Positions 8,106-37,338 are shown, counted from the first letter of the stretch. The stretch: 41,421 bases of DNA from Coriobacteriales bacterium (GCA_031279835.1 JAITHV010000028.1:1-41421); one strand, 5' to 3'. Numbers and translations: made by a program. Notes: generated by a model not told the origin, from the sequence alone.

Positions 8106-9461
8106 TCAAAACTCCAGCGTGCCCAGGCGCTCGAAGAGCACGTCGCGGCGCGCAAGAAAGCTCCAGGGGTCAAACAACGCGCCGAGACTGGCTGCGTCAA
8201 GCGTGACGCGCTCGTCTGCCTCTAGGCGCTCTAGAAGTCCTGGCCCCGGCTGCGCGCGCTGGATGTCGTCCCAGACCGCCATCGCGTTCTCTTGCACGAC
8301 GTCATAGGCGGCCTCACGGGAGAAGCCTGCGTCAACGAGAGCAAGCAAGACCTTGCTTGAGTAGATAAGCCCGCGCGTGCGCTCGAGGTTGGCACGGCAG
8401 TTCTCGGGATACACGACCAGGCCGTCGAGCACCCAGGTCATTTTGGCGAGCATGTAGTCAAGCGCCGTGAAGCTGTCGGACAAGACGATGCGCTCGGCAC
8501 CGCTGTGCGAGATGTCGCGCTCATGCCACAGCGCCACGTCGTCAAAGCCGACTTGCGCGTTCGCCTTGACCACGCGGGCAAGCCCGCAAACGCGCTCGCA
8601 GGTGATGGGGTTGCGCTTGTGCGGCATCGCCGACGAGCCCTTCTGGCCTTTTGCAAAGGGCTCTTCGGCTTCAAGCGTGTCGCTTTTTTGCAGCGCGCGG
8701 ATTTCTGTTGCAATATGCTCAAGCGTGGCGGCAGTGCAGGCAAGCACCGCGAGCACATGGGCGTGGTTGTCGCGTGCGATGACCTGGGTAGACAACGGGT
8801 CAGCGCTCAGTCCTAGCCGCTCGCAGACGTAGCGCTCAACAAAGGGGTCGATGCTCGAGTAGCTTCCGACCGCGCCGCTGATGGCGCCGCGGGCAGCGCT
8901 GAGTGCTCGCGCCTGATCCAAGCGCTCGTCAGCGCGCTTGAGCGCCCACGCCCAGGCGCCGAACTTCATTCCCAGGGTCATCGGCTCAGCATGAATCCCG
9001 TGCGTGCGCCCCACACAAAGCGCGTCCTTAAGCTCGAAGGCGCGCCGCAGCGCCACGGCGGCGAGAGAGCGCACGCCCGCGCGGACCAAGTCGATCGCTT
9101 GCGTGACCTGGCAGCAAAGTGCAGTGTCGCCCAGGTCGCTCGATGTCATGCCATAATGCACCCAGCGCGACGGGCGCAGCGCGCCGTCGGGCAGCCCTGC
9201 GTCAACGTGTTCGGCCACATTGGTGAGAAAGGCGATGACGTCATGATTGAGCGTCGCCTCGAGCTCGTCTATACGCCCTGCGTCAAAGTCGGCATGCTCG
9301 CGGATCCAGCGCGCCTCCTCAACAGATATGCCGCTGCCGCGCTGTGGGCCAAGCTGCGCCTGTGCCTCGCATGCGAGGACTTCGATCTCGAGCCAGATCC
9401 GGTATTTGTTCTCAAGGCTGAATATGCTTCCCATCTGCGGGCGCGTGTAGCGGTCGATCAT
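8106..9461 (-). CDS. purB: Adenylosuccinate lyase
   Basis: MIDRYTRPQMGSIFSLENKYRIWLEIE start and fumarase/ASL signature KGSSAMPHKRNPITCERVCGLARVV. Confidence 0.97.
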   Translation of the reverse strand: MIDRYTRPQMGSIFSLENKYRIWLEIEVLACEAQAQLGPQRGSGISVEEARWIREHADFDAGRIDELEATLNHDVIAFLTNVAEHVDAGLPDGALRPSRWVHYGMTSSDLGDTALCCQVTQAIDLVRAGVRSLAAVALRRAFELKDALCVGRTHGIHAEPMTLGMKFGAWAWALKRADERLDQARALSAARGAISGAVGSYSSIDPFVERYVCERLGLSADPLSTQVIARDNHAHVLAVLACTAATLEHIATEIRALQKSDTLEAEEPFAKGQKGSSAMPHKRNPITCERVCGLARVVKANAQVGFDDVALWHERDISHSGAERIVLSDSFTALDYMLAKMTWVLDGLVVYPENCRANLERTRGLIYSSKVLLALVDAGFSREAAYDVVQENAMAVWDDIQRAQPGPGLLERLEADERVTLDAASLGALFDPWSFLARRDVLFERLGTLEF

Positions 9462-9466
9462 ATGAC

Positions 9467-10138
9467 TCAGGCTCCTGTCGGGTTTTGGCGACGTATGATG
9501 TCGCGGCTCGGTATGATGACGGCGCTCAGCGGGCAGTCGTGTGCCTCGTTGGGCACCCCCTCAACCCACTGCTCGTCAAAGGCCACGCCTATGGTCGGCG
9601 TGCCGGGGGCAAGGCGAGGGAGGTAGCGATCGTAGTAGCCGCCGCCCATGCCAAGCCGGTAACAGCGCAAGTCAAAGCCCAGCAATGGAACGACCAAGGC
9701 GTCCAGGTCGGTCGGCTCAACGAAGTCAAGCCCGGCCAAGACTTCTGCGTCCGCCGTGGTGTCAAAGACGTGGGAAGGCTTCTTCTGGATAAGCCCCCTG
9801 ACGGCGCCGTCCGCCTCAAGGGCGTACTCCATTCTGCCGTCCGCAAAGCAGACCGGGTACGACACGCGGAAACCCTGGCTGAGCACGCCGGCCTCAAGTG
9901 TCAGTGTGGAGAGCTCTGTGCCGCAGTCCACATAGAGGCCGACGAGCAGCGTGCTGCCTCCTTGACGCTTGGCGTCGAGCATCGCTAGCTCCTTGAGCAA
10001 TTTTTGCATGACCATGACGGGGGCTGCAGCGCGCGCCTCCGGCTTTACCCGAGCGCGCTTGGCTGTTGCCAGCGTGCGTAACTCGTGTTTGTCCATCTTG
10101 CTTACGTCCTTTTCTTGTAGCTGCTTGTGAGCGGGCAT
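9467..10138 (-). CDS. 5-formyltetrahydrofolate cyclo-ligase (start may be 10096)
   Basis: LVVPLLGFDLRCYRLGMGGGYYDRYLPRL signature; adjacent to purB. Confidence 0.9.
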   Translation of the reverse strand: MPAHKQLQEKDVSKMDKHELRTLATAKRARVKPEARAAAPVMVMQKLLKELAMLDAKRQGGSTLLVGLYVDCGTELSTLTLEAGVLSQGFRVSYPVCFADGRMEYALEADGAVRGLIQKKPSHVFDTTADAEVLAGLDFVEPTDLDALVVPLLGFDLRCYRLGMGGGYYDRYLPRLAPGTPTIGVAFDEQWVEGVPNEAHDCPLSAVIIPSRDIIRRQNPTGA

Positions 10139-10202
10139 CCAAACCGCACGGAGATCAATTGCAGACGCCGACTCTCGATCTAGTTTCTCTCACGACTTCA
10201 CC

Positions 10203-11588
10203 TTACAACGGCTCGTCCATCGCGGGCAAGTCGCTGAGCAAATCGAGTCTATCGTACAGCCAGTCGAGGAACTGCTTGCCTTCGTCAGCCGAGTCGTACC
10301 AAAAAGTGTCCCGATAATACGCGCACTCGTCTCCGTCGTCGATATAAAAGCACCCAATGCTCAAGTTACGGGTCATCTCATGGCAGTCTACGCGAGTCGC
10401 AAGCGAAGCGGCAGGGTTTTGCTTCTCCGACAAGCGCATCACCATCTTGACAGTCTTTGAATGGGGGCACACGCTGATGTCGATGGGGCATCTTGAGTCG
10501 ATGTCACAATAGACCCTGAGCGTCTCGTCGCCCTCGCGCACATGCCGCACCTCATCCTCCACACATTCAAGACAAATGGCGTCAACAAGACGCTTGGCCT
10601 CATCACGCTCGTCGTCTGAGAGTTCTCTGGTGTCCAAGCGACCATCGAGTGCGTCTGAAGTGAGATTGAACCAGACAAGCCCAAAGACCCCCGCGCCCCA
10701 AACGCCGACTGACCGAAGAAAATCGTCAAGCAGGCGTGCCAGCAGGTCTATGCTCGGCTGGTCTTGCGTGAACTCATAGTTCATAACGTACGAGATGCCT
10801 GTGTTTTCATGGTGATACATATAGCCATTTATAATCTTACTATTACAAATATTTATTGCTGATATAATTTTGTCTTTTTCTACATCACTGGTGTCAAGGG
10901 GAAGCTGAGCAGACTGCCTGATCATCTGTTTTTCGTAATCAACATGAATATTGAGAAGCACGACAAAACTGCTCGTGCCTGTCCACAACTTGATGGCCGT
11001 ACCAGACTCATTCGAGAGAAATTCCAGCTGGTTTCCGGCAAGCAAGGCACAAAGAGAATGATAAATGCCTGATGCTGTATAAAGTATATCTAATATATCT
11101 TCAAGATAGTATTCCAAGGCAGCAGCAGGGTCCTCTGCGAGGAAATCGCACACCTCGTCGATCACTGCTTTTATATGTTCCCGGTAGTCAGGGCAGTTTT
11201 TCTCAATCCAGACATGTGCGCCAAAATCAGGAAGGAAGTCGTCTAGGAACTGTTCAAGTGAAAGGCCGGGGGCGTCTTGGGAGGCCTTGCGATACTCTTC
11301 GCGCACGACCTCCAGGTTTTTTGGGTCATCCAACGAAAAATACTGGTCGAGCAGTGCTTGCACTTTGTCAATGTCTTTTTCGGCAAACGCACCGAACTCA
11401 TCTACTTTGTCCGCGTCCATGCTTTCGGTTAGGCGAACACCAACACGCATCGAAATATCGTCGTAAACCTGCGTTATGAGGCAGCGCTTGACGAGAGTGG
11501 GCGTCTCCTCGAACCCCAGGCCGTCAAGAAGCTCGTCATCAATAACGAAGGGCGACTTGCCCAAATCCTGATCGCCTATGCTAGTCAT
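10203..11588 (-). CDS. Hypothetical protein with two YbjN-like segments
   Basis: Two candidate YbjN-like stretches: ISAINICNSKIINGYMYHHENTGISYVMNYEF and CHEMTRNLSIGCFYIDDGDECAYYRDTFWYDSADEGKQFLDWLYDRLDLL. ATG overlaps the upstream stop (ATGACTAG). Confidence 0.6.
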   Translation of the reverse strand: MTSIGDQDLGKSPFVIDDELLDGLGFEETPTLVKRCLITQVYDDISMRVGVRLTESMDADKVDEFGAFAEKDIDKVQALLDQYFSLDDPKNLEVVREEYRKASQDAPGLSLEQFLDDFLPDFGAHVWIEKNCPDYREHIKAVIDEVCDFLAEDPAAALEYYLEDILDILYTASGIYHSLCALLAGNQLEFLSNESGTAIKLWTGTSSFVVLLNIHVDYEKQMIRQSAQLPLDTSDVEKDKIISAINICNSKIINGYMYHHENTGISYVMNYEFTQDQPSIDLLARLLDDFLRSVGVWGAGVFGLVWFNLTSDALDGRLDTRELSDDERDEAKRLVDAICLECVEDEVRHVREGDETLRVYCDIDSRCPIDISVCPHSKTVKMVMRLSEKQNPAASLATRVDCHEMTRNLSIGCFYIDDGDECAYYRDTFWYDSADEGKQFLDWLYDRLDLLSDLPAMDEPL

Positions 11589-13311
11589 GGCCAGGTCCTT
11601 TCTTCAGCAGGCTCACATGGGGAGAAGCCTGGGCGAACCTTCTTGTCTTGCCATCCTCGTAAAACATGATGGTCATGGTCTTTTCGGTCTGCTCGACTAC
11701 AATGCCGTCTCCGAATTTTTTATGGCAAACCTCGTCGCCCGCCTCCAAGCGCGGCGCGTCTTCTTGGTTGTGCTTCTCATGGCAGATCCTAGTGAGCATA
11801 TTGAGAAGCTTGAGGCGCTCGTCGCGCAGCACGGGTTGCTCATCGTTGCTGAACAGGATTTTCATGAGTGCTGTTTTCGCGTGCGTCGCATTCGCGCTCG
11901 CCGTGTTCGCGCTCGCCGTCTTCGCGCTCGCCGTGTCACTGCCTGCCTTTTTCTGACGAAAGTCAGTTGTCTTTAGCGACCCGTCCACCGGAATGCAGAT
12001 GCCATCGTCAAGCATTCTCTGCTTTACTCTCTCGGCAACAGCGCTCTCGCCCGTTGTCTCCATGAGCGGCACCGAGACAAGAGCAGGCTTCATCTCATTG
12101 TTGTTGAGCAGCAGGCGCACGAGCGCCTGGTATCTTGGAATGCTGTTGACCTTGCTAATGTCGATGTCGAACTGCTCGGCTACGATCCGTGCGTCGTTTG
12201 CCCCCATGCTAAAGCAGGCCATAGTGCCGACATTGCCTAAAACCGCCTGCAGGAGGCTGCTGTCGTTGTATCCCGTGGCAAAGTTGAACGTCGTCAATTG
12301 ATGGGCACACTGGTTTGCAAGCGTGAAAGACGCGCGGTATTTGCGTGACTCGGCGAGCATGACCGCAAAATCTGGCGAGGCAAAGCTCTGAAACTCGTCA
12401 ATGAAGAAGTACCAGTTGCCCTGCGACTCCATGTCGCCTAAGCTACGCTGGAGCACGGCTCGCTTTATGGCTTGCATGCAGTCTGTGCCAATAAGACGCG
12501 TGTCGTCGCGCCCAAGTCTTGCCTGCGACATTCCCACAATGATTATTCTGCCTTTGTTGAGCTCCTCGGCATAGTCCAGGGTGGCATGCTGCATTGAAAA
12601 CACGTGCTTCATGCTTTGACTGTTGCTCAGTGGGCTGTACTTGGCAACTATCCAATTGACCAGGCTCATGCCTTCGCGCTCATGGGTCTGCATTTCGTAG
12701 CGATTGAGCTCTTGCGCCAGGTTATCGCCCACGTAACTTGCCGCTCGCGCCCTGAAATCCTTGTTAACAGCTAGCTCGTAAATGCTTAGAGGACTTCTCA
12801 CAAAAGGATACTTAGGATGAAACACAACATCGAGAAACACACTGTTCCAATGCTTCCAGACTGGACCTGTGAACTCATGATAGACCTCGTACGTGCACAG
12901 GGCAGTGAAGCTCTGTTTGGCAAGCGCGACAGCATTCGGGTCGCTCACGTCAACGTCGAGTGGGTTCCTGGTCGGAAGGTGCGATATGTCTGAGTAGTCT
13001 ACATAAGTTACTCGGTCTTGATACGCTTCGGGCACACAGTTAAGCGCGAACTTGGCCACGTCTCCGTGCGGGTCGATGACAAACACCGTGCACCCCTGCT
13101 CGATCTTCTGCTTGACAAGAAACTTGAGCAAGTTGCTCTTCCCTTTGCCGGTCTTGCCCCATATGAGTGCGTGCTGGCACTGGTCGTCAGGGGACTGCCA
13201 AACAGGCTCGACGTCCCTGTTTAGCCGGTAGCCCCATGTGACTCCTGAGTCAAAGAGGCAGTCAAGCTCTATGTTAGGCTCACTGAACTGCGAGTCGCTG
13301 ATCCACTCCAT
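11581..13311 (-). CDS. HerA/VirD4-like (DUF87/TraG-type) ATPase with C-terminal UvrD/PcrA-type Tudor-like domain
   Basis: Walker A LIWGKTGKGKSNLLKFLV; FVIDPHGDVAK; Walker B NWYFFIDEFQSFASPDF; ESRKYRASFTLANQ; C-terminal LEAGDEVCHKKFGDGIVVEQTEKTMTIMFYEDGKTRRFA. Start at 13311 chosen for upstream AGGTGG. Confidence 0.82.
   Translation of the reverse strand: MEWISDSQFSEPNIELDCLFDSGVTWGYRLNRDVEPVWQSPDDQCQHALIWGKTGKGKSNLLKFLVKQKIEQGCTVFVIDPHGDVAKFALNCVPEAYQDRVTYVDYSDISHLPTRNPLDVDVSDPNAVALAKQSFTALCTYEVYHEFTGPVWKHWNSVFLDVVFHPKYPFVRSPLSIYELAVNKDFRARAASYVGDNLAQELNRYEMQTHEREGMSLVNWIVAKYSPLSNSQSMKHVFSMQHATLDYAEELNKGRIIIVGMSQARLGRDDTRLIGTDCMQAIKRAVLQRSLGDMESQGNWYFFIDEFQSFASPDFAVMLAESRKYRASFTLANQCAHQLTTFNFATGYNDSSLLQAVLGNVGTMACFSMGANDARIVAEQFDIDISKVNSIPRYQALVRLLLNNNEMKPALVSVPLMETTGESAVAERVKQRMLDDGICIPVDGSLKTTDFRQKKAGSDTASAKTASANTASANATHAKTALMKILFSNDEQPVLRDERLKLLNMLTRICHEKHNQEDAPRLEAGDEVCHKKFGDGIVVEQTEKTMTIMFYEDGKTRRFAQASPHVSLLKKGPGHD
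11891..11935. repeat. 3 x 15-bp in-frame tandem repeat inside the ATPase gene
   Basis: ttcgcgctcgccgtg / ttcgcgctcgccgtc / ttcgcgctcgccgtg; encodes the TASAK/N repeat between ATPase and Tudor-like domain. Confidence 0.9.
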
Positions 13312-13455
13312 TTGCCCACCTTTCATAGCCTCTAGCACCGAATGGCTTTGTTAGGCTTCTGCTTATTGCAATTATACCTTGGCTTTCGCGCCTGTTCGAC
13401 GGACTGCTGGGTGTTCCGGACCAACTCGAAGCGGTCTAGCGCAGGCGTGCCTCCC

Positions 13456-13494
13456 CGCGCGCTGCGTGGCCACCCAGTGGCCACGCAGCGCGCG
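13456..13494. repeat. 18-bp perfect stem, 3-nt loop hairpin
   Basis: CGCGCGCTGCGTGGCCAC-CCA-GTGGCCACGCAGCGCGCG. Confidence 0.9.
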
Positions 13495-13525
13495 TCTAGA
13501 TTCCGGATCAAGTCTGGAATCTAGA
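13495..13525. repeat. Second inverted repeat directly adjoining the first
   Basis: TCTAGATTCC...GGAATCTAGA, 10-bp perfect arms. Confidence 0.85.
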
Positions 13526-13556
13526 TTGTCACCATATGCGGCTCGCGGGGGGGGCT

Positions 13557-14603
13557 TTAGTCGATAAGGGCAGGAAGTGCGGGGATCGCAACTATGAAGC
13601 AGGCACCTCCGTCAGGGAGGTTGAGCGCCTCGACCGTTCCATCGTGAGCGGCAACGATTGCCTTGACTATGGTCAGCCCCAGCCCCGTGCCGCCTGTCGT
13701 GCGCGCGCGCGAGGAATCCCCGCGATAGAATCGGTCGAACAACCGTGCCGGGTCGATGTCGCCAAAGCCCGGCCCGTCGTCAGACACCGTGATGACGCTA
13801 TAGCCTTTGATGCCGCTCAGGTTGACGCCGATGTGCCCACCTTCGGCGACCATGCGGTTGGCGTTGTCTACGAGGTTCAGCACTACCTGCTGGAGGCGGT
13901 CGGGGTCGCCGAGCACGTCGGGGGCCTCTCCCGTGACCGTCAGCTCCACCTCGCGGGCCTCGAGCAAAGGCCTGAGCATGTCAGCTGCATTCTCAACAAT
14001 AGTATGCAAGTTGACGCGCTTGAGGACTGTCTCGCCGTCTCCTTCGATGCGCTGCAAGGTGAGAAGGTCGTTGGCCAGTCGCGTGAGTCGCTCGCTCTCG
14101 CGGATGATGGTCTCGCAAAAGCGCTGGCGGTCGTCATAGGCGATGTCCTCGTCGAGCATGGTCTCGGCGGCGCCATGTATGGCGGTAAGCGGCGTGCGCA
14201 GCTCGTGCGACACGTCGCTGATGAACTGGCCTTGGCGCTTGCCTTCGGCAGCCACCTCGGCCATTGAGGCGCGCACCCGCGAGCTCACGGTGTCAAGCGT
14301 CTCTGCGAACTCCTGTATGCCGAGCGATGAGTTCGCGATGCGCTCGTCCATGAACCGGACCGAGAGGTTGCCCTCGGCAAGCTGTTTGACCTTGAGCACG
14401 ATGCGTGCGAGCGGCCCCAGGTATATGCCGGTCGCCGCATACGAGCACACATAGGCAAGCAGGCCCATGGGCAAGGCGAGGGCCAACAGCCAATAGAGCG
14501 GGTCGGAGCCGATGAGGACGATGACCACGAACCCCAACGCGATGCTCACCGCAAAAGCTGCGCTAATCAGAGAGAGAAGTATGCGTATTGTTCTGTATTG
14601 CAT
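13557..14603 (-). CDS. PhoR/SenX3-like sensor histidine kinase
   Basis: HAMP-like segment, FISDVSHELRTPLTAIHGAAETML H-box, DDGPGFGDIDPARLFDRFYRGDSSRARTTGGTGLGLTIVKAIV. Confidence 0.93.
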   Translation of the reverse strand: MQYRTIRILLSLISAAFAVSIALGFVVIVLIGSDPLYWLLALALPMGLLAYVCSYAATGIYLGPLARIVLKVKQLAEGNLSVRFMDERIANSSLGIQEFAETLDTVSSRVRASMAEVAAEGKRQGQFISDVSHELRTPLTAIHGAAETMLDEDIAYDDRQRFCETIIRESERLTRLANDLLTLQRIEGDGETVLKRVNLHTIVENAADMLRPLLEAREVELTVTGEAPDVLGDPDRLQQVVLNLVDNANRMVAEGGHIGVNLSGIKGYSVITVSDDGPGFGDIDPARLFDRFYRGDSSRARTTGGTGLGLTIVKAIVAAHDGTVEALNLPDGGACFIVAIPALPALID

Positions 14604-16463: not shown

Positions 16464-17051
16464 ATGAAAGAAGGGGAGCAGGTCCTTGCTGTGACAGATG
16501 GCAAGGTTACCGAAAGGGGCTGCCTGGAGTCTTTGCGAACATCGCTTCATCTCTCACCGGATACTGTCAAAGTCTGTTGAGCAGGTCAGTCTGGTGCCGA
16601 TGCAGTCATCAGGGAAGCTCGTATGCTGGTCACAGAAAGGAAGGCGGCGAGGCAGCTACCATATGATGCGGCCTGGCTCGTGTTCGACTCGGTGGGTCCT
16701 CTAGTAAATGGTTTTGCTGCAATTACAGTAGCAATACTTCATAAGTATCGCCTTGCCATCAGTGCGCCGTGCATTGAATATTGGATTCTCCTGCATTTCC
16801 AATACACCGATGCATATTTGTGCGATTATAGAGCAGTAGAAAGATCCCTCAAGGATTACTGCGAATATGACAAAAAGAGCTTTGACCCTAAGATCATTCT
16901 CGACAAGACAGGCACTGCAGTCAACAATACTCGCATGGCAAGAAACAGTCAGGCAAGAGTTCCGAAGGAGCTGCCCGCAACAGACATGGATCTCCTTGTC
17001 GCCCAAATGAACGCAATGGCTCATCCGGACTACCGGTTGTTCGAGGCATAG
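16464..17051 (+). pseudogene. RloB/AbiLii-like protein interrupted by one in-frame TGA (16578-16580)
   Basis: In one frame: MKEGEQVLAVTDGKVTERGCLESLRTSLHLSPDTVKVC*AGQSGADAVIREARMLVTERKAARQLPYDAAWLVFDSV...YRLAISAPCIEYWILLHFQYTD...RLFEA; RloB-like TE motif, FD motif and SxPCxExWxLLHF motif. Confidence 0.7.
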
Positions 17052-23794: not shown

Positions 23795-24445
23795 ATGACC
23801 GACACTCGCTACACAACCCCACTTTATACGATACGCTCAGCTGCGACTCATGTTGGGATGACCTCAAGCACGCTCGGGCGCTGGGCGCACAAAGAACACC
23901 TTCTGACAGTTTTGCCTGCAGAAACCCGCCATGGCGCGCGCCTCCCTTTTAGTGCGCTCGTAGAGGCACAACTCTTTTGGGCGTTTCGTCAGGGAGGGCT
24001 ATCGATGAAAGCCGTAGAGTCTGGCATGAAGAGTGTCAGAGAAGAACTGGGCAGCAATATGCTCAAAGAAGGCATGCTCGCCCATGATGGCAGCGACATT
24101 TTGATGAATCTCGCCAAGAACAGTCGTGCTGAAGAATGGGTAAGGGCACGAGACCTACAGACGACCATCCCCAAGATTGTGGAAGAGGGCTTGCGGTTGA
24201 TTACTTGGGACGAGCACCATAATCCGCAGTAGATCAGGCTAACCGTTTATGGCAACGCAGATGTCGTGGCAGACCATCGGTTTGCTTTTGGGCAGCCAGT
24301 GCTACAAGGCACGTGAACACGGGTAGACGACGTCATTCAATTATTCAAGGCAGCTGAACCTATTCATACCATCTGCGACGAGTACTGCGTTGATACCAGT
24401 GCGGTCGAATCCATCATCCGTGCCCATGTTGCCCTCGCAGCCTGA
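23795..24445 (+). pseudogene. DUF433-type (VapB45-like) antitoxin with two in-frame stops
   Basis: MTDTRYTTPLYTIRSAATHVGMTSSTLGRWAHK...HNPQ*IRLTVYGNADVVADHRFAFGQPVLQGT*TRVDDVIQLFKAAEPIHTICDEYCVDTSAVESIIRAHVALAA*: one frame, TAG at 24230-24232, TGA at 24314-24316; RBS gggagggg. Confidence 0.8.
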
Positions 24446-24620
24446 GTTCTTTGTAGACCATTGTATGGGAACACAATCGTTTCCGGATTACCTACGCAAA
24501 AAGGGGTACCGCGCACATACGGTACTGGAGCACTTCGGACGTCCGGACGCTTCAGATAGCGAGTGGATTGAAGTGGCCGTGAACAACAATTGGATCGCCA
24601 TTACAAAGGATGCTGCAATA
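24442..24620 (+). pseudogene. Truncated VapC45-like (PIN-like) toxin
   Basis: FFVDHCMGTQSFPDYLRKKGYRAHTVLEHFGRPDASDSEWIEVAVNNNWIAITKDAAI, then lost at a 21-bp hairpin. Confidence 0.7.
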
Positions 24621-24659
24621 GTCATGACCCCCGGCATAGCCGGGGGTCATGACTATTGC
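24615..24659. repeat. 21-bp perfect stem, 3-nt loop hairpin at toxin/IS junction
   Basis: GCAATAGTCATGACCCCCGGC-ATA-GCCGGGGGTCATGACTATTGC. Confidence 0.95.
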
Positions 24660-24750
24660 CCTATAAGGGCCAGACTACCTGCTTGCGGCTAAAGCCGCGA
24701 TGGCTCGGCGCATCATGTTACTTCCTGCCCCCTGAAGGGGGCGAAGCGGC

Positions 24751-25184
24751 TCAGCCGACCTGGCTGCCCTCTTCCTAGTTCTGTATGTACTTCTTTATCG
24801 TGCCTCGTTTAATCCGACAGTGCTTACGTAGTAACCTCTCGCCCAAAACGTCCGGTCCTTGCCAACCCGGCTGCGCCTCTCCGGGTGGCGGTCGCGCAAG
24901 ATCAGCGCGGTCTTACCCTTCACGTGTCCCATCACATCTGACACTGCGTACTTTGGCGGTATCCTCACACACAAGTGTATGTGGTCGACGCAGCACTTGC
25001 CCCCGATAATTTCTATGCCGGGCTTTTTCGCCAGCAGCTCCCGGATCAACCGCCCGACCTCTTGCCTGCACTCCCCATAAAGCATCTTGCGCCTGTACTT
25101 CGGTATCCAGACGATGTGGTACACGCAGTCCCACTTCGTGTGTGCTAGACTTGATTCTTCCATGATTCTCCTATTCTGTTGCAA
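24751..25184 (-). pseudogene. IS200/IS605-family TnpA (Y1 HUH transposase), frameshifted and nonsense-mutated at the C-terminus
   Basis: KWDCVYHIVWIPKYRRKMLYG, CCVDHIHLCVRIPPKYAVSDVMGHVKGKTAL, FWARGYYVSTVGLNEA, then +1 frame TIKKYIQN*EEGSQVG*. Confidence 0.9.
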
Positions 25185-29734: not shown

Positions 29735-29885
29735 GACACTCTCCCTTGTATAGTTATGGCTGACTGTCCTGTTGCACAAACAATATAACAGCGACGGTCT
29801 GTTTTGGTATGCTTCATGCATACACTGCCTAACGCAGTTTCTACTTCATGTATGGTTCATTTTTGACGCGTTGAAAGGCGGTGCG

Positions 29886-31028
29886 TTGTTGGCGCAATTG
29901 ATAACCGCAGACACGTTCAGAGGTTGCCTGGTTGGTGGGGCCGTCGGTGACGCACTCGGGTATGCTGTCGAGTTTTTATCTCTTGATCAGATTAGAGCTA
30001 AGTATGGCTATGGCGGTATCACCGAGTACGAGCTACGAGACGGACTCGCACGCATCTCTGACGACACGCAAATGACCTTGTTTACCGTGAGCGGACTGCT
30101 GGCTTGGGCGACTCATCAAGCTGTCGAAGGCGTTGCTGGCACCGTCGAGCACTACGTTTCGGACTGCTACAAGGACTGGCTGAGAACCCAGGATGCGCCA
30201 TGCTGCAGTCAGGGCGGTCATGACAGCTCGTGGTTGATGCGCGTTCCCGAGCTGTGCCAGCGGCGTGCGCCCGGCACGACCTGCACCAAGTCCTTGCGCG
30301 AGGGCATGCCCGTAATGAGCAGCAAGGGCTGCGGCGGAGTCATGAGGGTGGCGCCCGTGGGGCTGTTTTTTGACGGCTCCCCCACAAGAGGCAACAGCGA
30401 AGTGGAGCCGCGGGTCTTTGCCGCCATACAGGCTGCGTCCATTGTGCAGATCACGCATGGCCATGAGCTTGGGTTTATCCCTGCTGCAGCATTTGCCTAT
30501 ATTATCAGTTCTATAACATATTATACATATACTCAAACAAATTGGCTCGAAGCGATCATTGCGGACTGCATTGTGACGATGGACGCCCTCTATTCTGGTT
30601 ATCGGCACATCTCTGACTTTTGCCGCATTATGACTCGTGCGGTCGAGCTTGCGCAGGGCACGGCGCCAGACACGGGCTGCATACAGGAGCTGGGGCAAGG
30701 ATGGGTGGGCGAAGAGGCGCTGGCCATCGCTGTGTTTTGTGCACTGCGCCACCAGGACAGTTTTGAGGACGCAATTGTCGCGGCGGTCAACCATAGTGGC
30801 GACAGCGACTCTACCGGCTCAATTGCCGGGAGCATTCTTGGGGCTCGCTGCGGTTACGACGCTTTGCCAGCACGGCTCACTAAGCGCCTGGAGCTGCGCC
30901 ATGTCATACTTGAGATCGCAGAGGACCTTTGGCAGGACTGCCGCGTCAAGAGCCAACTAGGCAGCCTCACGCCCGATGAGACGATTTGGCTGAGCAAGTA
31001 CTATCGGCCAAGCCATGCCGACAGGTGA
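29886..31028 (+). CDS. ADP-ribosylglycohydrolase family protein (DraG/ARH), probable TTG start
   Basis: ADTFRGCLVGGAVGDALGYAVEFL, ISDDTQMTLFT, KGCGGVMRVAPVGL, NHSGDSDSTGSIAGSILGA. Confidence 0.92.
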   Translation: MLAQLITADTFRGCLVGGAVGDALGYAVEFLSLDQIRAKYGYGGITEYELRDGLARISDDTQMTLFTVSGLLAWATHQAVEGVAGTVEHYVSDCYKDWLRTQDAPCCSQGGHDSSWLMRVPELCQRRAPGTTCTKSLREGMPVMSSKGCGGVMRVAPVGLFFDGSPTRGNSEVEPRVFAAIQAASIVQITHGHELGFIPAAAFAYIISSITYYTYTQTNWLEAIIADCIVTMDALYSGYRHISDFCRIMTRAVELAQGTAPDTGCIQELGQGWVGEEALAIAVFCALRHQDSFEDAIVAAVNHSGDSDSTGSIAGSILGARCGYDALPARLTKRLELRHVILEIAEDLWQDCRVKSQLGSLTPDETIWLSKYYRPSHADR

Positions 31029-35620: not shown

Positions 35621-36067
35621 TCAGGTGACCTCGGGCATCTCTCTGCACAGGAACATAGTGTCCAGGGCCTCTTCGTAGGTATTGCCCACGAGTGCGAGAA
35701 AATTGTCGTACGCACCATACATTTTTCCTGTGTCGGACACCATCAGCACATAATACTCGTTGTATGCCATGCCGACGACGACAAGCGACTCGCCTGTCCT
35801 GCCTTCGTATGTTTCTACTTTTTCTCTGTAGATTTCATCACAGGCTCGCAGTGGGTCAAAGTATAGCTTCTCAAATTTATTCTCCCGGTTATACAAGGGT
35901 TGCAGCAACTCAAGCCCCCCGAACCGTGAAAGGAACTCCTCGGCAAACGGGTTGACGGCATAGCCCTCCTCTTCCAGCCTGTCTACGTACGCCGCGATGT
36001 CTACCCGTCGGCTCTCGTCCCATCCTGCATCGGTCAAGAACTTTTGCGTCACATTGGATAGGTGCAT
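35621..36067 (-). CDS. SUKH-3-like immunity protein
   Basis: MHLSNVTQKFLTDAGWDESRRVDIAAYVDRLEEEGYAVNPFAEEFLSRFGGLELLQP...; RBS AGGAGG before ATG 36067; 14 bp gap from the toxin. Confidence 0.75.
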   Translation of the reverse strand: MHLSNVTQKFLTDAGWDESRRVDIAAYVDRLEEEGYAVNPFAEEFLSRFGGLELLQPLYNRENKFEKLYFDPLRACDEIYREKVETYEGRTGESLVVVGMAYNEYYVLMVSDTGKMYGAYDNFLALVGNTYEEALDTMFLCREMPEVT

Positions 36068-36081
36068 GCTGCGCCTCCTGT

Positions 36082-37338
36082 CTATCCCGATACAACAGTA
36101 ATACCGTCGAAGATCTCCCGGCAGTAGGTGCACATAGGGAAAGCATCCCCAGATCTGACCTTTACCGTACTAATCACCAAATCCTGAATGCGGGCACCCG
36201 AGTTAAGCGCGGTGTTGGCAGCGTTGAACTCCGCGCAGTTACCCACAGGCCAGGGATGGGTGCCGCCTTCTGGCATGCGCGCCTGCAACGCCCGGTTGAT
36301 GTTTCCCGGGACGCTCCCGCTGTCTCCGTAATACACCCTCCCCGTCCTCGCATCGACCGCAGCAGACGTAGCGCGAGGCTGTTGGCTCCTTGGTAGTGCA
36401 CGTAACTCATCTGCACGCGAAGCCACGGCGTCTCGCGACGTGGTGGCAGCTGGACCAAGCTTGTACGAAAGACCGCCCAAGCCGCCGCCCAAGACTCCGC
36501 CCGCAATAGCACCAGAAAACCCGCTCGAAAAGATAATGCCGAGTGAGCCGTCAAGGGTGCCGTTGTCAATAAAGAAGCTGACGGCGGTCACGGCCATGTT
36601 GCTGAGACTGCCTGATATGGCGCCTATGCCTGCTCCCTGCGCAATGCTTCCCAGCAGCGTTGTCGCGGGCCCGACCAGCGCAGTCAAACCGCTGGTTATC
36701 CCTCCGCCAAGCGCGCCCCCGATCGCTCCGGTGAATGCCCCGTTCACAAAGCCTTCAAAGAACGACCCACCGTTTATGGCGCTTAATATCCCGCCACTCA
36801 GCCCGCCTATCCCTGCGCCGAGCAGCGCGCCCCAGGCCATAGCGGCAAAAATTCCGCCGACACCTGTGCAGATAAGGACAACCGACACTGCCACGAGCAC
36901 CACCACGGCGAAAATCTTCAGCGCTGTCTTCCAGTTTTTCGCGCACCAGTCGCCCACCGAGGCGACACCGTCGCAGAACTTCTCCCAGTTGCCCTTCTCG
37001 CACTCAGGCTTGAGGTGGCTGTGCTCCTTGTAGAACTCGTCCTTGCGCTTGTTTATGAGGTCTGCGACGGCGTTGTCTATGCGGGCGGCGTTTTCCGCGA
37101 ACTGCTCGATGCGCCGGCCGAGCGCGTCGAGCGAGGCGATTTTTCGCTCCTGTATCTGGGTGGACGCCCGTATAGTGTCGATTATCTCGTCTAAGTCGCA
37201 GACGCTCTTGTTTATCGAGAGCGCCTTTCGCGCCATGGAGTCCTGCTCGGGCGTGTACGCGGCGACGGACGGGTTCACGCTCGCTCTGAGGCCGGGCATC
37301 TGGTTGATCTGGCTCGCGTACAGGCTGATAGTCGCCAT
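36082..37338 (-). CDS. Polymorphic toxin: helical N-terminus, Gly-rich hydrophobic middle, YwqJ-like deaminase C-terminus
   Basis: N-terminus with RRIEQFAENAARIDNAVADLINKRKDEFYKEHSHLKPE; C-terminus ATSAAVDARTGRVYYGDSG...VGNCAEFNAANTAL...DAFPMCTYCREIFDG (CAE and CxxC deaminase motifs). Confidence 0.8.
   Translation of the reverse strand: MATISLYASQINQMPGLRASVNPSVAAYTPEQDSMARKALSINKSVCDLDEIIDTIRASTQIQERKIASLDALGRRIEQFAENAARIDNAVADLINKRKDEFYKEHSHLKPECEKGNWEKFCDGVASVGDWCAKNWKTALKIFAVVVLVAVSVVLICTGVGGIFAAMAWGALLGAGIGGLSGGILSAINGGSFFEGFVNGAFTGAIGGALGGGITSGLTALVGPATTLLGSIAQGAGIGAISGSLSNMAVTAVSFFIDNGTLDGSLGIIFSSGFSGAIAGGVLGGGLGGLSYKLGPAATTSRDAVASRADELRALPRSQQPRATSAAVDARTGRVYYGDSGSVPGNINRALQARMPEGGTHPWPVGNCAEFNAANTALNSGARIQDLVISTVKVRSGDAFPMCTYCREIFDGITVVSG

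Follow-up and report, generated by a model that had tools for sequence, protein, structure and literature searches.

Several described systems resemble the gene pair reported here. SIR2-HerA (Nezha) and DUF4297-HerA (PDB 8sub, 8j4u; PMC11291478) also consist of two genes, with a HerA-type ATPase of similar motor fold. The coupling proteins TrwB and DotL have the same motor fold, and additionally offer the idea of a chaperone-like adaptor: IcmSW binds the C-terminus of DotL (PMC3441705), and CagZ is the adaptor on Cagbeta. YbjN proteins, also known as the TY-chaperone superfamily, include AmyR and DR1245 (PMC5398634, PMC3575483, PMC9503650). Of these, DR1245 binds the SSB-like protein DdrB (PMC3575483). 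The helicase PcrA of B. subtilis has a Tudor domain that binds RNA polymerase and UvrB (PMC8318588).

The pair is found on the minus strand of a 41,421-nucleotide stretch of DNA from a Coriobacteriales bacterium, here called the window. It is made up of an ATPase gene (11581..13311; 576 amino acids from the ATG, where a GTG start at 13338 would give 585) and a partner gene (10203..11588, minus strand; 461 amino acids). By ORF reading, the ATPase stop and the partner start overlap by 8 bp (11581..11588, minus strand, ATGACTAG), exactly as an initial annotation of this DNA had it. Unlike SIR2-HerA and DUF4297-HerA, the partner has no nuclease or sirtuin, and instead consists of a DUF5663 domain and two YbjN-like domains. 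The ATPase also has no match to the HAS barrel found at the N-terminus of HerA. Compared to the YbjN superfamily, what sets the window apart is a tandem pair of such domains fused to DUF5663 and coupled to a probable DNA motor. The initial annotation had called this the strongest intact candidate for an undescribed system. No entry in the profile libraries names the pair, and no named system in them matches both genes. In the 5.39 million open-access papers searched, the word DUF5663 is absent, and no paper joins YbjN and HerA in this sense.

The larger protein had been read as a HerA/VirD4-like ATPase with Walker A and B motifs, which is confirmed by Pfam matches to DUF87/HerA (1.2e-10) and TrwB_AAD_bind (2.3e-7). 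Walker A (GKTGKGKS, residues 52-59, 13135..13158, minus strand) and Walker B (YFFIDEF, residues 301-307, 12391..12411, minus strand) were located by sequence and by alignment of homologues, and both are intact. D305, E306 and the glycine and lysine of the P-loop are invariant across 32 homologues, as are several further ATPase motifs. An AlphaFold2 model built on 32 sequences has a mean pLDDT of 77.8. When this model is searched with Foldseek, the best hit is HerA (4d2i, E 2.3e-13), followed by HerA-NurA, DotL, TrwB, DndH, VirB4 and SIR2-HerA. The ATPase domain begins near residue 24, after a disordered stretch. Further on, a 15-bp tandem repeat (11891..11936, minus strand; period 15, 3.1 copies, 93% matches) codes for an alanine/serine/threonine-rich linker, also noted initially.

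There is no transmembrane segment in the window ATPase. Its highest 19-residue hydropathy is 1.29, versus 2.1-3.1 in three Patescibacteria relatives. The protein is a soluble HerA/coupling-protein-type motor whose catalytic residues are intact. Within the FtsK-HerA/coupling-protein superfamily, it would be a DNA translocase powered by ATP, probably working as a hexamer, and its substrate would then be DNA. It is ruled out as a working conjugation coupling protein, because it lacks a membrane anchor and VirB4 is missing from the genome. This agrees with the earlier remark that conjugation genes are missing. The genome is about 91% complete, and contains no VirB4 over cut-off; the best match is the P-loop of the ATPase itself. 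A phage gene origin was also rejected. There is no close phage relative, and the best phage match, to Bacillus phage G, has 22% identity. Scans of viral contigs turned up one distant ATPase and no partner.

The partner starts with a helical DUF5663 domain (PF18908, residues 21-100, 11289..11528, minus strand) that the initial annotation did not mention. The Pfam E-value is 5.1e-8, at 33.8 bits versus a gathering score of 23.7. Past this domain, the remaining two thirds of the protein have no direct Pfam match, and YbjN (PF10722) is not matched directly either. The initial annotation did propose two YbjN-like segments, and these are supported by a homologue in a genome from a different genus of the same family (G017). 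A first, T3SS-chaperone-like segment (residues 166-294, 10707..11093, minus strand) and a second one (residues 326-454, 10227..10613, minus strand) can both be aligned to the one YbjN domain that the G017 partner has, with hhalign E-values of 4e-4 and 4e-6. Smith-Waterman scores against that domain are 69 and 85, where shuffled sequences have means of 28 and 30, and not one of 500 shuffles reaches either score. The two halves have no direct similarity to each other, and are linked through G017 alone. Since each segment aligns to the G017 domain, the best reading of the C-terminal part, going by sequence, is that of two diverged YbjN-like domains. A single-sequence structure model of the partner has a pLDDT of 36.

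The partner is also strongly acidic, with 92 D+E versus 41 K+R (net -51). This, together with the T3SS-chaperone-like domains and the structural match of the ATPase to DotL, fits a protein-translocation motor. The YbjN domains would then be genuine secretion chaperones, delivering proteins to a coupling-protein-like ATPase in the manner of IcmSW and DotL. Such a motor is however hardly probable at all, given the missing membrane anchor and VirB4, and no cargo gene is recognised near the pair.

The two genes are inherited as a pair in G017, as would be expected from the two-component unit that had been proposed. The G017 partner is 35% identical over residues 15-162, and has a DUF5663 domain (3e-10) followed by one YbjN domain (Pfam 9e-4, below cut-off). 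The next gene is a separate YbjN protein that does exceed the Pfam cut-off (1.8e-5). The ATPase, partner and YbjN genes overlap head to tail in G017, and form an operon. Further away, plasmid pYYL1.1 of Rhodococcus ruber carries DUF5663 in the gene after a related ATPase. The Moranbacteria ATPase, which is membrane-anchored, has its DUF5663 gene one gene upstream. On another Patescibacteria contig, DUF5663 precedes, by one gene, a frame that resembles the start of the ATPase and is cut off by the contig end.

DUF5663 is rare. Among 400 genomes of the class it was found in three, and in two of these the ATPase sits beside it; a sample of the phylum had it in one of 397 genomes. This makes chance adjacency improbable. 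Because the association is also present on the Rhodococcus plasmid and in Moranbacteria, it is older than the window locus, and the core pair is the ATPase plus DUF5663. The association is not obligatory, as the nearest other ATPases (G270, and L028 from Eggerthellaceae) have no DUF5663 next door. For several DUF5663 genes of Patescibacteria, what follows is a giant protein, and the vicinity contains no ATPase. In L118, L119 and L121-L123, the DUF5663 gene is directly upstream of a very large protein, of at least 1160 to 1829 amino acids. This is apparently a conserved unit. The one giant protein that was scanned, in L123, has no Pfam match.

A tree of 110 ATPase cores was made using a quick method. 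The window ATPase, on a long branch (1.7), groups with G017, G270 and L028 (SH-aLRT 96), and this group joins proteins from Streptomyces and Micromonospora (SH-aLRT 100). ATPases from actinobacterial elements, whose neighbour is a Replic_Relax-like gene, form a separate clade. Membrane helices are absent from the window, G017, G270, Streptomyces and Rhodococcus ATPases, and present at the N-terminus of the three Patescibacteria proteins that were checked (Moranbacteria, L034, L059). By profile and by tree, the window ATPase belongs to the same family as phrog_5156 and the TraG-DUF87 ATPases of Patescibacteria and actinobacterial elements. As at the window, DUF5663 is found nearby in Moranbacteria and Rhodococcus. 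The window differs from the Patescibacteria members checked, which have the membrane helix, and from the actinobacterial elements, which have the Replic_Relax-like neighbour instead of DUF5663.

This wider family suggests another origin for the pair. It could be a DNA-handling module left over or orphaned from an integrated element, with the ATPase as a stray relative of coupling proteins that packages or transfers element DNA. The family is indeed present on plasmids, its Actinobacteria members are linked to the recurrent Replic_Relax-like gene, and the match to phrog_5156 is 5e-21. The window clade is however apart from the Replic_Relax-linked one, the ATPase has no anchor, the genome has no VirB4, and no relaxase or integrase is recognised beside the pair. 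A relic of this kind is unlikely, but not far-fetched.

Some relatives differ from the rest. L170 and L028, which are the closest ATPases without a partner, carry IAAHEED in place of the IDPHG(D) seen in nearly all others, and have kept Walker A. This possibly means a changed activity. Perhaps by chance, an ADP-ribosylglycohydrolase gene is next to or near both (L170 418-1260; L028 4887-5768), and the window has one too, 16 kb off (29772-31028, plus strand). In Micromonospora qiuiae (L029 1281-6248), a 1655-residue relative combines an N-terminal segment with a nitrilase-like reading, the ATPase core and a C-terminal DUF3710 (5e-28).

In the window, the pair is flanked by fthC/purB on one side and by a two-component kinase gene on the other, names that were read from the sequences. 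The neighbours are housekeeping genes, and there is no defence island around this copy. The two genes have a GC content of 50% and 54%, versus about 58-66% for most neighbours. The adjacency of purB and fthC is kept in seven relatives, while the G017 pair is on a different contig. The upstream side in these relatives has no synteny, so the exact insertion edges can't be drawn. Because of the lower GC, the housekeeping setting and the absence of the pair from most relatives, it looks like a horizontally acquired cassette.

The gap that separates the pair from the kinase gene upstream holds two adjacent inverted repeats (13456..13525, strand unassigned), one with perfect 18-nt arms and one with 13-nt arms at 92%. 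These are possibly a terminator or a cassette edge. Fragments of the second repeat are present at five further sites in the genome, at 84-89% over 27-39 bases. Rfam finds no RNA family in 9400-14000, and promoter and terminator scans found nothing above chance level.

The ATPase ends in a PcrA/UvrD-type Tudor-like domain (residues 525-562, 11626..11739, minus strand), which in PcrA and UvrD sits on an SF1 helicase and not on a HerA-type motor. On this tail, both Pfam matches are below cut-off: PcrA_UvrD_tudor (PF21196) at E 0.012 and RapA Tudor at E 0.009. The reading is held to be right because of three other results. A genome search with the whole ATPase, blind to the Tudor idea, returned at E 5e-4 to 1e-3 three proteins of UvrD/PcrA type from other genomes, which align solely to ATPase residues 520-574. 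The 61-residue tail on its own matches the extreme C-termini of the same helicases, at E 2e-5 to 2e-4. Finally, the AlphaFold2 model of the ATPase has four strands at 529-562, with a pLDDT of about 70-76. The tail also has the signature GDxVxHKxFGxGIV plus a basic TRR/TKK stretch, common to PcrA/UvrD Tudor domains.

The homology claimed initially thus stands. As a feature of the system as a whole it does not, since the tail is missing from the G017, Streptomyces, Rhodococcus and Eggerthellaceae ATPases. With these homologues lacking it, the tail is, judging by sequence comparison, an addition in the window lineage and private to the window copy. It may recruit the motor to a host partner. The Streptomyces and Rhodococcus ATPases have a conserved tail of their own, LDDWLARR, which is absent from the window ATPase and is possibly an adaptor-binding peptide.

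The Tudor homology could be taken further, by reading the pair as a DNA repair or transcription-conflict factor. The tail would bring the motor to stalled RNA polymerase or to repair complexes, and the YbjN adaptor would take care of an SSB-like client. Both the binding of RNA polymerase and UvrB by the PcrA Tudor (PMC8318588) and the DR1245-DdrB precedent (PMC3575483) argue for this. Against it, the gene is accessory, and the homologous ATPases have no Tudor. Also, by alignment, the position of PcrA K727 is an arginine in the window tail, and a search of one RpoB from this genome for the exact published PcrA interaction motif found none, although RNA polymerase could still be bound. On balance, we deem a repair or transcription-conflict role improbable.

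The reading we prefer has a chaperone-type adaptor controlling a soluble DNA motor, both encoded by a horizontally acquired two-gene cassette. We would put its chances near the middle of the scale. The ATPase and partner would form a complex, in which the DUF5663 domain of the adaptor docks onto the motor. The two YbjN (TY-chaperone) domains would bind a client peptide, and gate or load the motor; this is by analogy with DR1245 on DdrB and IcmSW on DotL. In the window copy, the Tudor tail would bring the motor to a host DNA-processing partner, comparable to the PcrA tail with RNA polymerase and UvrB. The motor would then pump DNA.

What such a motor would be used for is a separate question. 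The initial annotation proposed DNA processing or defence. In the defence version, the pair is a two-gene anti-phage or anti-plasmid system, where the adaptor senses an invader protein and frees the HerA-type motor. This then strips invader DNA or feeds it to host nucleases, like SIR2-HerA or DUF4297-HerA. Two-gene defence systems based on HerA are known (PMC11291478), conflict systems with TY-chaperones and with HerA ATPases have each been described (PMC9503650), and the pair has an accessory distribution. In addition, the G017 copy sits in a conflict-type island, surrounded by an SNF2 helicase, a MoxR-type AAA ATPase, a metallopeptidase-vWA protein, a STAND NTPase and two kinases that match PD-T4-6 and MkoA. 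The Streptomyces relative is likewise near a MoxR-type AAA gene and a vWA gene.

The ATPase also weakly matches mad8, a gene of the MADS system (PADLOC), at 8e-12 for the window, covering profile positions 26-255 of 314, and at 1.2e-14 for G017. The PADLOC scan at the window covered the two genes of the pair, and the partner has no match. The flanking genes read as housekeeping from their sequences, and no other MADS genes were seen. Membership of MADS is not claimed on a partial mad8 match alone.

The defence reading is weakened by the profile-library scans, which found no effector domain (nuclease, sirtuin or other) in either protein. A system on the lines of SIR2-HerA or DUF4297-HerA (PMC11291478) is less likely for that reason. 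The conflict-type island is seen in G017 alone, the window neighbours are housekeeping genes, and DUF5663 in Moranbacteria is in operons without a sign of defence. The two-gene defence system is therefore a tentative reading, somewhat doubtful but to be taken seriously. An anti-invader role would still be the likeliest single biological use, mainly from the G017 neighbourhood, if short of an even chance. Because the core pair is also found in Moranbacteria with membrane-anchored ATPases, a general role in DNA transport or DNA processing is as well founded as one in defence. A more specific anti-invader machine can also be imagined. Here a membrane-free DNA pump would be parked on RNA polymerase by the PcrA-type Tudor tail. 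The DUF5663/double-YbjN chaperone would hold it inactive and let it go once an invader peptide is sensed, and the machine itself would include no effector enzyme. This is a long shot.

These results bear on more than this locus. DUF5663 now has a link to a single family of DNA-motor ATPases, found in Actinobacteria and Patescibacteria, so that its role can be tested. YbjN chaperone-like domains are placed in a dedicated operon with a probable DNA motor, and a helicase docking tail appears to have been transplanted onto a motor of HerA type. Should the pair turn out to be defensive, it would represent a HerA-type system that lacks an effector enzyme. If it is not, it provides a lead to the working of the related ATPases in uncultured Patescibacteria.

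The window contains some further genes of note. At 16623-17051 (plus strand) there is a 142-residue RloB-like protein, which covers family positions 59-194 of 195. Its start is truncated or displaced, and no RloA is recognised beside it. A small PIN_10-like protein (24390-24692, plus strand) is close to an IS200-like transposase (24795-25184, minus strand). Finally, a SUKH-3 immunity protein (35621-36133, minus strand; 1.1e-23) overlaps the end of a gene for a 418-residue protein without a Pfam match (36082-37338, minus strand), and together these look like a polymorphic-toxin/immunity pair.
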